A DNA stretch of 64,000 nt, taken from the NCBI RefSeq assembly GCF_002794355.1, contig NZ_PGOI01000008.1, positions 186,001-250,000 of the forward strand, read 5' to 3'. Below the pieces are notes generated by a model. That model had not been told where the DNA came from, did no database searches, and saw only the letters and a list, made by a program, of their open reading frames with translations. Positions within the stretch are counted from its first letter, which is position 1. Every line of letters begins with the position of its first letter. Positions 6,622 to 10,647 of the stretch are shown in pieces. The position numbers and the translations under genes are program-made. The DNA is from Pseudorhodobacter sp. MZDSW-24AT (lineage in GTDB: Bacteria; Pseudomonadota; Alphaproteobacteria; Rhodobacterales; Rhodobacteraceae).

Positions 6622-7638
6622 ATGTCCCAAGACGCCCTGTCCAAGCTGCTTTCCACCCGCGACTGGCTGATGGCCGACGGCGCCACCGGGACCAACCTGT
6701 TCAACATGGGCCTCTCCTCGGGCGAACCGCCCGAGCTGTGGAACGTCGATCAGCCCGACAACATCCGCGCGCTCTATCGCGGCGCGGTGGAGGCAGGCTC
6801 CGACATCTTCCTCACCAACACCTTTGGCGGCAATGCCAGCCGGCTGAAGCTGCATCAGGCACAAGGCCGGGTGCACGAACTCAACCGCCTCGGGGCGGCC
6901 TTGGGGCGCGAGATTGCAGATGCGTCCGGCCGGACGGTCGTGGTCGCGGGCTCTGTCGGCCCCACGGGTGAGATCTTTGAACCCATGGGCACCCTGACCC
7001 ATGCGCTCGCGGTCGAGATGTTCCACGAACAGGCGGAAGGGCTCAAGGCCGGGGGCGCCGATGTGCTCTGGATCGAAACCATCAGCGCGCCCGAAGAATA
7101 CCGCGCCGCCGCCGAAGCCGCCGCCCTTGCCGGGATGCCATGGTGTGGCACCATGAGCTTTGACACCGCCGGGCGCACCATGATGGGCACCACCTCGGCG
7201 GCCATGGCCGAACTGGTGGAAAAACTCGCCAACCCGCCCTTGGCTTTCGGCGCCAATTGCGGGGTCGGCGCCTCTGACCTGATGCGCACCGTGCTGGGCT
7301 TTGTCTCCACCGGCACCGAACGCCCGCTCATCGCCAAAGGCAATGCCGGCATCCCGAAATATCACGATGGCCACATCCACTATGATGGCACGCCCGAGCT
7401 GATGGCCGAATATGCCGTGCTTGCGCGGGACGCCGGGGTGCGCATCATTGGCGGCTGCTGCGGCACCATGCCCGAGCATCTGAAAGCGATGCGGGCCGCG
7501 CTGGAGGCAAGGCCGCAAGGCCCGCGCCCCACGCTGGAAGACATCTCCGCGAAACTGGGCGGCTTCTCCTCGGCCTCGGATGGCACCGGCGACACGTCGA
7601 ACGAGCCTCGCCGCGAACGGCGCAACCGCCGCGGCTGA
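6622..7638 (+). CDS. bmt: Homocysteine S-methyltransferase (betaine-homocysteine methyltransferase family)
   Basis: The 338-residue TIM-barrel protein has the zinc-thiolate residues of the Hcy-binding family: Cys213 (FGANCGVG) and Cys279-Cys280 (IIGGCCGT). It also has the N-terminal DGATGTN loop. It transfers a methyl group to homocysteine to make methionine. Annotation pipelines name it betaine-homocysteine methyltransferase. The free-standing corrinoid protein gene 1.4 kb downstream suggests that here it acts as the homocysteine module of a split cobalamin-dependent methionine synthase. The ATG at 6622 gives the conserved start; the ribosome site is weak. Confidence 0.88.
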   Translation: MSQDALSKLLSTRDWLMADGATGTNLFNMGLSSGEPPELWNVDQPDNIRALYRGAVEAGSDIFLTNTFGGNASRLKLHQAQGRVHELNRLGAALGREIADASGRTVVVAGSVGPTGEIFEPMGTLTHALAVEMFHEQAEGLKAGGADVLWIETISAPEEYRAAAEAAALAGMPWCGTMSFDTAGRTMMGTTSAAMAELVEKLANPPLAFGANCGVGASDLMRTVLGFVSTGTERPLIAKGNAGIPKYHDGHIHYDGTPELMAEYAVLARDAGVRIIGGCCGTMPEHLKAMRAALEARPQGPRPTLEDISAKLGGFSSASDGTGDTSNEPRRERRNRRG

Positions 7639-7642
7639 CCAC

Positions 7643-7740
7643 GATTTTTCTGCGAAAAATCAACCGCGCCCCCTTCGACAAAAGGGCAGCGAAAGGTTTT
7701 TTCGCAGAAAAAACCCCTTCGAATTTTCGCAGAAAATTCG
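7643..7740. repeat. Array of three related hairpins between convergent genes
   Basis: Three AT-rich palindromes occur at 7643-7661, 7695-7715 and 7720-7740. All share the core TTTTC-NNN-GAAAA with loops TGC, GCA and GCA, but have different closing pairs (GA/TC, GG/CC, CGAA/TTCG). Position between the convergent bmt and radical SAM genes suggests bidirectional termination. Confidence 0.75.
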
Positions 7741-7746
7741 TCCGCC

Positions 7747-8850
7747 TCAGAACAGGCTCAACTGATCTCCCGCACGCGGTGGCGGCGCAAACAGATCGCA
7801 GCGCAACGGTGGCATCGCTTTGGCCAGCCCCAGCCGCGCCACCGCCTTGTCAAAGCGCTGTGCAATCAGCCCGGCCCAGACGCCCGTGCCGCGCATCCGC
7901 CGCCCCCAATCCGCATCATAATCCCGCCCCCCATGCATCTCGCGCACCCGCGCCATCACCTTGGCCGCCCGCTCGGGCACATGCCGGGCCAGCCAGTCCT
8001 GAAACAAGGGGGACACCTCTCGCGGCAGGCGCAACGCAATCCAGCTTGCCCCTTGCGCCCCTGCCTCCCGGCAGGCCGCCAGAATCTGGTCCAGCTCCGG
8101 ATCGGTGAGTCCCGGAATCACCGGTGCCACCATCACCCGCACCGGCACCCCCGCCTCGGTCAAGCGCCGGATCATCTGCAACCGCCGTGCCGGGCTGGGC
8201 GCGCGGGGCTCTAGTCGCCGCGACAGGCCCGCATCCAGCGTGGTGACCGAAATCCCCACCCGCAGCAGGCCCTGCGCCGCCATCGGCGCCAGAATGTCCA
8301 GATCGCGCTCGATCAGCGCGCCCTTGGTGGTGATCGCGGTCGGATGGCGGAACGCCGCCAGCACCTCCAGCACCTGCCGCATCAGCCGATGCTCCGCCTC
8401 ACACGGCTGATACGGGTCGGTGTTGGTGCCCAAGGCCACCGTCGCCACGCGATAGGCCCGCGCGCGCAGCTCCTCCGCCAGAACCGCCGCGATCCCCGGT
8501 CGTGCGATCAGCTTGGTCTCGAAATCCAGCCCCGGTGACAGGTTCAGATAGGCATGGCTCGGCCGCGCGAAGCAATAGATGCAGCCATGTTCGCAGCCAC
8601 GATAGGGGTTCACCGAACGGTCAAACGGCAGATCGGGCGAGCGGTTGTAGGACAGCGCAGAACGGGGCCGCTCCAGCCGCACATCGGTGGCCAGAAGCCG
8701 CTCCTCCTCGGGCAGGTCCCAGCCATCCTCCAGCCGCGCGCGGGCTTGCGTCTCGAACCGCCCCGCCGCGTTGGAGGCAGCCCCCCGCGCCCGCAGGCGC
8801 TGGCCAGGCATCAGGCTGGCATCTGGCAACAAAGAGTCAGGCTTGCGCAT
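7747..8850 (-). CDS. PA0069-family radical SAM protein (spore-photolyase-like)
   Basis: The 367-residue protein has the radical SAM cluster motif CEHGCIYC (Cys86, Cys90, Cys93) and the family lead-in NPYRGCEHG, followed by FARPSHAYL. The family is widespread and resembles DNA photoproduct lyases (SplB/Rv2578c type), but I know of no settled substrate. The ATG at 8850 is used; another in-frame ATG lies at 8862. It is divergent from the corrinoid gene and convergent with bmt, so it sits inside the methionine locus without sharing its strand. Confidence 0.82.
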   Translation of the reverse strand: MRKPDSLLPDASLMPGQRLRARGAASNAAGRFETQARARLEDGWDLPEEERLLATDVRLERPRSALSYNRSPDLPFDRSVNPYRGCEHGCIYCFARPSHAYLNLSPGLDFETKLIARPGIAAVLAEELRARAYRVATVALGTNTDPYQPCEAEHRLMRQVLEVLAAFRHPTAITTKGALIERDLDILAPMAAQGLLRVGISVTTLDAGLSRRLEPRAPSPARRLQMIRRLTEAGVPVRVMVAPVIPGLTDPELDQILAACREAGAQGASWIALRLPREVSPLFQDWLARHVPERAAKVMARVREMHGGRDYDADWGRRMRGTGVWAGLIAQRFDKAVARLGLAKAMPPLRCDLFAPPPRAGDQLSLF

Positions 8851-9007
8851 AAAACAAACCATGAACAAAAGGATGGCAAAGTTCAACCCCTCACGGCAGC
8901 CCCCCTTGCTGTCGGCTTTCAGTCGGGGCATGTCGCAATTCGCAAAGTCGCAAATGCGATTTGGCCCCATGCAGAGTCCAAGACCCCCCGCCGCAGGAGC
9001 GCGCCCC

Positions 9008-9703
9008 ATGGCTGACGATGACATCATCCTTTCCGAACTGTCGGATGACGAACTTGTGCTGCAAATGCACGACGACCTTTACGACGGTCTGAAGGAAGAG
9101 ATCGAGGAAGGCGTCAATATCCTAATCGAACGCGGCTGGACACCCTATGACGTGCTCACCAAGGCGCTCGTCGCGGGAATGACCATCGTCGGCAATGATT
9201 TCCGTGACGGCATCCTCTTCGTGCCCGAAGTGCTGCTGTCGGCCAATGCGATGAAGGCCGGCATGTTCATCCTGAAGCCCCTTCTGGTGGAAACCGGCGC
9301 GCCGCGCATGGGGAAAATGGTGATCGGCACCGTCAAGGGGGACATCCACGACATCGGCAAGAACCTTGTCGCGATGATGATGGAAGGCGCAGGCTTCGAG
9401 GTGCTGGATTTGGGCATCAACAATTCGGTCGAAAAGTATCTCGAGGCCTTGGAAGCCGAAAAGCCCGATATCCTCGGCATGTCGGCGCTCTTGACCACCA
9501 CCATGCCCTATATGAAGGTCGTGATCGACACGATGAAGGAAAAGGGTCTGCGCGACGATTACATCGTGCTGGTGGGCGGCGCGCCGCTGAATGAGGAATT
9601 CGGCCGCGCCATCGGGGCCGATGCCTATTGCCGCGATGCCGCCGTGGCCGTGGAAACCGCCAAGGCTTGGGTCGCGCGCAAGCACAACCAACTCAGCGCC
9701 TGA
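9008..9703 (+). CDS. Stand-alone corrinoid (B12)-binding methyltransferase protein
   Basis: The 231-residue protein comprises an N-terminal helical cap of the MetH/MtaC type (residues ~10-95) and a Rossmann-like cobalamin-binding domain. The DxHxxG motif is Asp112-Ile-His114-Asp-Ile-Gly117 (KGDIHDIGKN), with His114 the expected cobalt ligand; SALLTT and VGGAPLNEEF follow. Such proteins shuttle methyl groups between partner methyltransferases. With bmt nearby it probably carries methyl groups to homocysteine. A terminator follows at once. Confidence 0.9.
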   Translation: MADDDIILSELSDDELVLQMHDDLYDGLKEEIEEGVNILIERGWTPYDVLTKALVAGMTIVGNDFRDGILFVPEVLLSANAMKAGMFILKPLLVETGAPRMGKMVIGTVKGDIHDIGKNLVAMMMEGAGFEVLDLGINNSVEKYLEALEAEKPDILGMSALLTTTMPYMKVVIDTMKEKGLRDDYIVLVGGAPLNEEFGRAIGADAYCRDAAVAVETAKAWVARKHNQLSA

Positions 9704-9725
9704 CCGCGCCCGCAAAGAACGAACC

Positions 9726-9757
9726 GCCCCGGCGTCAGCGACGACCGGGGCTTTTTT
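9726..9757 (+). terminator. Intrinsic terminator of corrinoid protein gene
   Basis: Stem 9726-9732 with 9745-9751 carries a second nested stem (9733-9736 with 9740-9743), followed by six T's. Confidence 0.93.
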
Positions 9758-9823
9758 ATGCATTTCGGGCTTCACATTCCTGACACAAGCGACCACATTC
9801 CCCTTAAGGAAAAGGAGTATCGG

Positions 9824-9979
9824 ATGCCCCTCCCCCTGTTTCTGGCGATGCTGGCCTTTGTGATCACCGCAGCCGGCGCCACCTTGGCCCTTGCGCTTTG
9901 GGCGCAGGTGCCGCTTCTGGCGCTTGCCCTCGCGGCCCTTGCGGGCAGCTTCATGCTCGGCCTGCGGCAGTGGCGCTAA
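9824..9979 (+). CDS. Micro membrane protein, unknown function
   Basis: The predicted 51-residue protein starts at an ATG with a good AAAGGAG seven bases upstream. It is almost entirely two hydrophobic segments (LFLAMLAFVITAAGATLAL and VPLLALALAALAGSFML) and ends RQWR. I do not recognise it. Its stop overlaps the likely GTG start of the DUF1638 gene by 10 bases, which suggests coupling to it. Confidence 0.6.
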   Translation: MPLPLFLAMLAFVITAAGATLALALWAQVPLLALALAALAGSFMLGLRQWR

Positions 9980-10647
9980 CGCCCCTTGATGATGACACGC
10001 TGACCACGCGCGGGCTTGCCCTCTCGCCACCGGCAACGGCGGCCGCGCAGCGGGTTCTGCTCATCGCCTGCGGCGCGCTTGCGCATGAAATCCTCGCGCT
10101 CAAGGCAGCCAATGCTTGGGCGCATCTCGATGTGCAATGCCTGCCCGCCAATCTCCACCTCTGGCCTGACCGCATCCCCGCCGCAGTCGAACAAGCCGTC
10201 CTGTCCCACCGTGCCGCCTATGCCCAGATCTTTGTGGTCTATGCCGATTGCGGCACGGGCGGGCTCTTGCAGGCCAAATGCGCCGCATTGGGTGTGCAAA
10301 TGGTGGAAGGCCCGCATTGCTACAGCTTTTTCGAAGGCAATGCCGCCTTTGCCGCCAAGGCCGAAGACGAATTCACGGCCTTCTACCTCACCGATTTTCT
10401 GGTGCGCCAGTTCGATGCCTTTGTCTGGCGCCCCATGGGGCTCGACCGCCACCCCGAATTGCGTGACATCTACTTTGCCCATTACACCAAGCTGATCTAT
10501 CAGGCCCAAACCAACGACCCCGCGCTCGATGCCAAGGCCGCCGCCTGCGCTGCCCGGCTGAACCTTGCCTATGAACGGCGGTTTACCGGCTATGGCGACC
10601 TTGCCATCACCTTGGCAAAGGTTGCAGCCCCCGGCGCCGCCCCCTAA
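9970..10647 (+). CDS. DUF1638 protein, possible partner of the corrinoid methyltransferase
   Basis: The ~225-residue cytoplasmic protein matches DUF1638: LIACGALAHEI near the start, then YADCGTGG and VEGPHCYSFFEGN, with conserved cysteines (IACG, ADCG, PHCY). The only in-frame start near the family N-terminus is the GTG at 9970, overlapping the micro membrane gene. DUF1638 genes recur beside corrinoid proteins. From memory, mutant-fitness data in Phaeobacter linked a DUF1638 gene to split methionine synthase; I could not verify this here. A role in cobalamin handling is inferred. Confidence 0.72.
   Translation: MALTPLDDDTLTTRGLALSPPATAAAQRVLLIACGALAHEILALKAANAWAHLDVQCLPANLHLWPDRIPAAVEQAVLSHRAAYAQIFVVYADCGTGGLLQAKCAALGVQMVEGPHCYSFFEGNAAFAAKAEDEFTAFYLTDFLVRQFDAFVWRPMGLDRHPELRDIYFAHYTKLIYQAQTNDPALDAKAAACAARLNLAYERRFTGYGDLAITLAKVAAPGAAP

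Follow-up and report, generated by a model that had tools for sequence, protein, structure and literature searches.

Organization of the locus

The window analyzed here is a stretch of 64,000 nucleotides from Pseudorhodobacter sp. MZDSW-24AT (contig NZ_PGOI01000008.1, positions 186,001 to 250,000 of the forward strand), and near its start lies a cluster of genes for corrinoid-dependent methyl transfer, including mtgE (also called bmt), mtgC and a gene of the DUF1638 family (Table 1). The locus is of the split cobalamin methionine synthase type already described in Phaeobacter and Ruegeria, an enzyme to which it adds one more member. A first-pass annotation, made from the letters alone, had proposed such a split locus, and the domains, the gene set and the gene order all identify it as the Phaeobacter type. 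The homocysteine-methyltransferase module and the free corrinoid protein with the motif D-I-H-D-I-G, both named in that annotation, were recovered by PF02574 and by PF02607 and PF02310, respectively. It made no mention of the radical SAM gene, nor of the hairpin followed by T6.

Table 1. Genes and features of the mtgE-mtgC-DUF1638 locus, in window coordinates
Feature	Position	Strand	Evidence
mtgE (bmt), homocysteine S-methyltransferase module	6622..7638	+	PF02574, 211 bits; NF005718 (betaine--homocysteine S-methyltransferase), 613 bits, cut-off 338
PA0069-family radical SAM gene	7747..8850	-	NF033668, 479 bits, cut-off 360; conserved neighbor
mtgC, corrinoid protein: helical cap and B12-binding domain, DIHDIG motif	9008..9703	+	PF02607, 60 bits; PF02310, 93 bits
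Terminator-like hairpin 3' of mtgC: 7-bp stem, 12-nt loop, then T6	about 9726..9757	+	
51-aa hydrophobic micro-protein, conserved Rhodobacterales family	9824..9979	+	profile matches in related loci
DUF1638 protein, 225 aa, inferred GTG start	9970..10647	+	PF07796, 104 bits

MtgE possesses the motifs GANC and GGCCG, the cysteines of which (C213, C279 and C280) we take to be the zinc ligands. The window MtgC shares 86% identity with its counterpart in Ruegeria pomeroyi SZCCDBG043. The radical SAM gene sits between mtgE and mtgC; its longest frame extends to 9027, and the start is probably Met60. It is a conserved neighbor, and at most a putative part of the enzyme. The Phaeobacter counterpart is reported to lack a fitness effect (Price et al. 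2018, PMC5764234).

Forty related loci whose mtgC-DUF1638 gap measures 190-420 nt were examined; 16 of them have a strict terminator-like hairpin within 120 nt past mtgC, compared to 0.0 expected from mononucleotide shuffles. The hairpin of the window is not listed by a generic scan with a loop limit of 8, its own loop being 12 nt. As this hairpin and its T6 lie between mtgC and the micro-protein frame, the latter and DUF1638 may form a unit separate from mtgC. In the Phaeobacter operon, DUF1638 is reported to be the last gene (Price et al. 2018, PMC5764234).

The Mtg complement of the genome

The assembly (3.86 Mb in 26 contigs, completeness 100) contains all the Mtg parts that were searched for, namely MtgE, MtgC, MtgD, MTTB-superfamily proteins, RACo and DUF1638. 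Domain searches revealed three homocysteine-methyltransferase matches (PF02574), three pterin-binding matches, a single Met_synt_B12 activation domain, one RACo activase and three proteins of the MTTB superfamily (PF06253), which by family membership appear to be MtgB-like. The unlinked folate-domain protein that had been predicted is indeed present: MtgD, a protein of 326 aa (PF00809; NF005719, 405 bits, cut-off 259), is encoded on contig C12, unlinked to the window locus. The genes there are ordered as a PF13769 protein (108 bits), a MetF-like protein with only a weak match to methylenetetrahydrofolate reductase, MtgD and RACo.

The first-pass annotation had also taken the Mtg set as the methionine synthase and had seen no full-length MetH in the window, an absence that does not extend to the genome. 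A complete MetH with the activation domain (PF02965) is encoded on contig C26 as two overlapping genes (L014:3704-7446), and no match to MetE (PF01717) was found in the genome. A complete MetH elsewhere in the genome is one of the findings by which that annotation had said its reading would fall. The larger MetH part has 904 aa and comprises the pterin, B12 cap, B12 and activation domains (NF007024, 1585 bits, cut-off 1497); the ATG of its gene overlaps, as ATGA, the stop codon of the gene for the other part, a homocysteine-domain protein of 343 aa. The Mtg set is thus not the only methionine synthase encoded, and given the complete two-gene MetH it need not be the methionine synthase here. 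MetH and RACo lie on contigs outside the window, beyond the view of that annotation. Splitting of MetH looks common in the sampled family, since the frame holding the activation domain is shorter than 1000 codons in 13 of the 23 relatives that have this domain.

MtgC, RACo and DUF1638 are present or absent together

Among 196 genomes of the order, each of them the Pseudorhodobacter genome itself or one of the same genus or the same family, 181 have DUF1638. All 15 genomes without DUF1638 and 25 chosen genomes with it were compared, to which the Pseudorhodobacter genome was added to give 41. Across this set, MtgC, RACo and DUF1638 are all-or-none, with 26 genomes having all three and 15 having none. 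RACo is present in 25 of the 25 sampled relatives with DUF1638, or 26/26 with the Pseudorhodobacter genome, and in 0/15 without; MtgC, at 82-100% identity, shows the same distribution (26/26 and 0/15). The MtgC matches that remain in the 15 genomes are 34-38% identical and lie inside MetH-sized frames of 910-1297 codons, in addition to one match of 27% in a frame of 687 codons. The MetH activation domain was detected in 15/15 genomes without DUF1638, and in 8/25 with it (9/26 including the Pseudorhodobacter genome). The 15 genomes lacking the module belong to six genera, and joint losses of the three genes on several occasions are likely, because three of these genera also hold module-bearing members.

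DUF1638 belongs with MtgC and RACo, in agreement with the published DUF1638/RamA profile, which is here reproduced and extended. It had been proposed that DUF1638 takes the place of the MetH activation domain; the association with the corrinoid module stands, but the replacement does not, as RACo accompanies DUF1638 in 26/26 genomes. DUF1638 therefore stands beside an activase rather than acting in its stead, and the substitute for the activation domain is likely the RACo/RamA-type activase, as proposed for RamA by Price et al. (2018, PMC5764234). The four-family co-occurrence that had been suggested is borne out for MtgC and DUF1638, together with RACo, but not for the micro-protein, to which we return below.

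DUF1638 and a small PF13769 protein

Of 80 Rhodobacterales loci, 70 have DUF1638 downstream of mtgC, with gaps that range from overlap to 3.9 kb. A similar arrangement is found in six plasmid clusters of alpha- and betaproteobacteria, from two Paracoccus species, Sinorhizobium, Shinella (an unannotated record, the genes of which were located by tblastn), Terrarubrum and Azoarcus. DUF1638 is the next same-strand gene after mtgC in 6/6 of these clusters, RACo is in the same stretch in 6/6, and mtgD in 5/6.

Alignment of 16 DUF1638 proteins, down to 48% identity, revealed five invariant residues (C57, C94, C117, H63 and H116), in addition to C34, which is present in 15/16, the exception being a protein with an annotated start lying beyond C34. 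The AlphaFold2 model, computed from 56 fairly close sequences, has a predicted local distance difference test score of 91.6 and a predicted template modeling score of 0.81. In this model, C34 follows the strand of residues 29-33, C57 ends the strand 53-57, and C94 comes soon after the strand 86-90, an arrangement in which the cysteines may gather in one site. The conserved cysteines and histidines suggest a site that handles a metal or a corrinoid. Structural comparison of the model gave no clear fold relative, an Asp/Glu racemase-like fold having been considered. The passages of the literature that name DUF1638 offer no molecular function for it, and further literature searches yielded nothing more on it.

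One conceivable role for DUF1638 is that of a cofactor-loading or assembly factor that converts apo-MtgC into holo-MtgC, without being part of reductive reactivation. The position next to mtgC in the plasmid clusters and the Rhodobacterales loci, as well as the invariant residues, agree with such a role. Moreover, the Terrarubrum stretch contains mtgC, DUF1638 and a fusion of PF13769 to RACo but no mtgD match, from which DUF1638 seems to serve MtgC itself. However, the all-or-none presence with RACo suits reactivation at least equally, and to our knowledge MetH and MtgC elsewhere bind cobalamin with no loader known. We regard loading as a real possibility, albeit an unlikely one. More tentative still is our proposal that DUF1638 is a corrinoid helper of a new kind, a Rossmann-like protein in which the conserved cysteines (C34, C57, C94 and C117) would hold an iron-sulfur or other metal center, or a corrinoid, and which would bridge MtgC to RACo; with the PF13769 protein it would make up a three-part module, not named before, that activates corrinoid methyltransferases of the aerobic type.

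In Terrarubrum, RACo carries the PF13769 domain as an N-terminal fusion (residues 8-92 of 760; L178:10589-12868). A separate gene encodes it in the Sinorhizobium, Azoarcus and Shinella clusters, and the two Paracoccus plasmid stretches gave no match. A tblastn search placed a PF13769 relative at the head of metF2-mtgD in 9/9 loci with mtgD near RACo, including that of Pseudorhodobacter, where the gene lies on contig C12 (L015:5818-6117). Pfam labels this family "Virulence factor", yet the present data give no hint of virulence, and a literature search with PF13769 as a term found no paper. The PF13769 protein is a better candidate for a small partner than the micro-protein, and represents a new lead.

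MtgE in genomes without MtgC

Among the 13 fetched loci of genomes without MtgC, mtgE remains in five. The zinc cysteines are kept in three of them (G092, G185 and, over the part from residue 88 onward, G188), whereas in the other two, G115 and G024 of one genus (L165 and L170), all three are gone. The frame without the zinc cysteines is nevertheless open over 318 codons, matches PF02574 with 117 bits in G115, and shows a ratio of nonsynonymous to synonymous differences (pN/pS) of 0.15 between G115 and G024. Judged from its sequence, it is a relative that selection has retained where no MtgC match is present.

These genomes bear on a published disagreement, namely whether Bmt works alone or only with MtgC. 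Purified Phaeobacter Bmt is reported to methylate homocysteine directly from betaine or dimethylsulfoniopropionate (DMSP) in vitro (Narvaez-Barragan et al. 2025, PMC12366255). Together with the five MtgC-less loci that retain mtgE, three with the zinc cysteines, this would fit a Bmt/MtgE that acts mainly as a solo betaine (or DMSP) homocysteine methyltransferase, its nearness to mtgC being historical. By contrast, the fitness profiles of bmt, mtgC and mtgD in Phaeobacter are reported to be correlated (all r > 0.7), and methionine rescues the mutants (Price et al. 2018, PMC5764234); according to Mausz et al. (2025, PMC12478193), the betaine-binding residues are kept only in the SAR11-type Bhmt; and in two of the five genomes all three zinc cysteines have been lost. 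A mainly solitary role appears rather unlikely.

The micro-protein between mtgC and DUF1638

The 51 codons of the micro-protein frame encode nearly all hydrophobic residues, as judged by hydropathy, with charges only at residues 48 and 51, and the product is predicted to have one or two membrane helices. Neither Pfam nor NCBIfam has a family for it; a profile built for the family gave matches in 48 of 80 related loci. The frame evolves as a coding sequence: over 41 pairs the median pN/pS is 0.24 (mean pN 0.133, mean pS 0.496), the differences at codon positions 1, 2 and 3 number 364, 143 and 824, and 36 of 38 aligned members start with MP. It is a genuine gene under purifying selection, and its stop overlaps the inferred GTG start of DUF1638 (9970) by 10 nt.

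With the same profile, the micro-protein was found in 13 of the 15 genomes that have none of MtgC, RACo and DUF1638 versus 15 of the 26 with them (Fisher p 0.08), a difference in the direction opposite to partnership. It is absent from the fetched stretches of the six plasmid clusters, all of which have DUF1638, and gave no profile match within 7 kb on either side of the Ruegeria pomeroyi SZCCDBG043 locus. In 7 of 13 fetched module-less stretches, no more than about 520 nt separate the micro gene from the radical SAM gene, and L165 and L170 retain the order purC - zeta - mtgE - radical SAM - micro with mtgC and DUF1638 matches absent. A gene of the HNH endonuclease type adjoins the micro gene in 10 of the 13 stretches (L161 and L163-L171; assigned to HNH by Pfam for one member), and a carboxylesterase-like gene (Abhydrolase_2) lies beyond it in nine. 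A YbjQ-like gene separates the micro-protein from DUF1638 in 5 of the 80 loci (L109, L114, L125, L129 and L131; PF01906 checked for L109), where the micro-protein has a longer form with EDDHYD or EDDRYD near its end.

Since the module-less genomes mostly retain the micro gene, a YbjQ-like gene can be interposed, and the plasmid clusters do without it, the overlap with DUF1638 would reflect position rather than partnership. The best reading on this evidence is a syntenic bystander, a conserved gene in its own right that happens to stand between mtgC and DUF1638. The first-pass annotation was right that the gene is real, but that the peptide is a working partner of DUF1638 and tethers reactivation to the membrane is very improbable in view of these distributions, even though the gene is under selection and, in 41 of the 48 loci having it, its end overlaps the projected DUF1638 start or comes to within about 40 nt of it.

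Proposed mechanism

We propose, with a probability of about 75%, that the locus supplies MtgE, MtgC and the accessory DUF1638 of an aerobic MtgBCDE system, in which methyl groups pass from donors to MtgC and further to folate or homocysteine, RACo reactivates, DUF1638 assists, and the micro-protein is separate. The gene content, the genome-wide complement, the co-occurrence and the synteny were directly observed, and the catalytic and reactivation steps are modeled on published genetics. By orthology, the MtgB proteins would load methyl groups from glycine betaine or similar donors onto the MtgC-bound cob(I)alamin, MtgD would swap the methyl group with tetrahydrofolate in both directions, and MtgE would pass it to homocysteine at the zinc site. 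Cobalamin that is accidentally oxidized would be reduced by RACo, and DUF1638, more speculatively, may help to reactivate MtgC in this way or to load its cofactor. As the complete two-gene MetH coexists with the Mtg set, the methionine role of the latter is possibly redundant here, and betaine demethylation or methyl recycling may count more.

Several observations weigh against this proposal. The window MtgC scores under the NCBIfam MtgC cut-offs (203 vs 370 and 169 vs 310), which belong to "exception" models; the MtgC match of G030, one of the 26 genomes, has one reported internal stop; and the terminator-like hairpin stands between mtgC and DUF1638. MetH with its activation domain occurs here and in 8/25 of the relatives with DUF1638, so that the methionine role of the Mtg set need not be essential. 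An MtgE with zinc cysteines persists in three genomes that lack MtgC, in line with the reported activity of Bmt alone in vitro, and our literature search found no published assay of DUF1638.

The losses in six genera tell a genuine module of MtgC, RACo, DUF1638 and possibly PF13769 apart from a bystander. With its conserved residues named and a confident model at hand, the role of DUF1638 becomes testable; the best open leads are its biochemical role and, new here, PF13769.

Comparison with known systems

The closest likeness is to the three-part methionine synthase of Phaeobacter inhibens with its RamA-like and DUF1638 proteins, where mutants in MtgC, MtgD, MtgE, the RamA-like protein and DUF1638 are reported to have phenotypes rescued by methionine (Price et al. 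2018, PMC5764234). By locus number, the gene order is the same: PGA1_c13370 (methyltransferase), c13360 (radical SAM), c13350 (corrinoid) and c13340 (DUF1638). Both genomes also have an unlinked pterin protein and a RamA-like activase, but the Pseudorhodobacter genome encodes an additional MetH with the activation domain. The window has the micro-protein frame between mtgC and DUF1638, the comparison with Phaeobacter covering the four numbered genes.

The MtgBCDE system of Ruegeria pomeroyi, at once a methionine synthase and a glycine-betaine methyltransferase, has in common with the Pseudorhodobacter set MtgB-like proteins, MtgC, MtgD, MtgE, a MetF-like protein next to mtgD, RACo and DUF1638; there, mutants in MtgC and MtgD are reported to lose both methionine synthesis and growth on glycine betaine (Mausz et al. 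2025, PMC12478193). The Pseudorhodobacter genome differs in that mtgD and RACo lie near each other on contig C12 and that MetH is present; the same authors report 108 of 156 MtgBCD genomes to be without MetH. The DUF1638 protein matches none of the Pfam domains of RACo/RamA, the corrinoid reductive activases that co-occur with it and are the probable agents of reactivation. Compared to classical MetH, the Mtg set shares the chemistry and the domain families, but distributes them over separate proteins without an activation domain.

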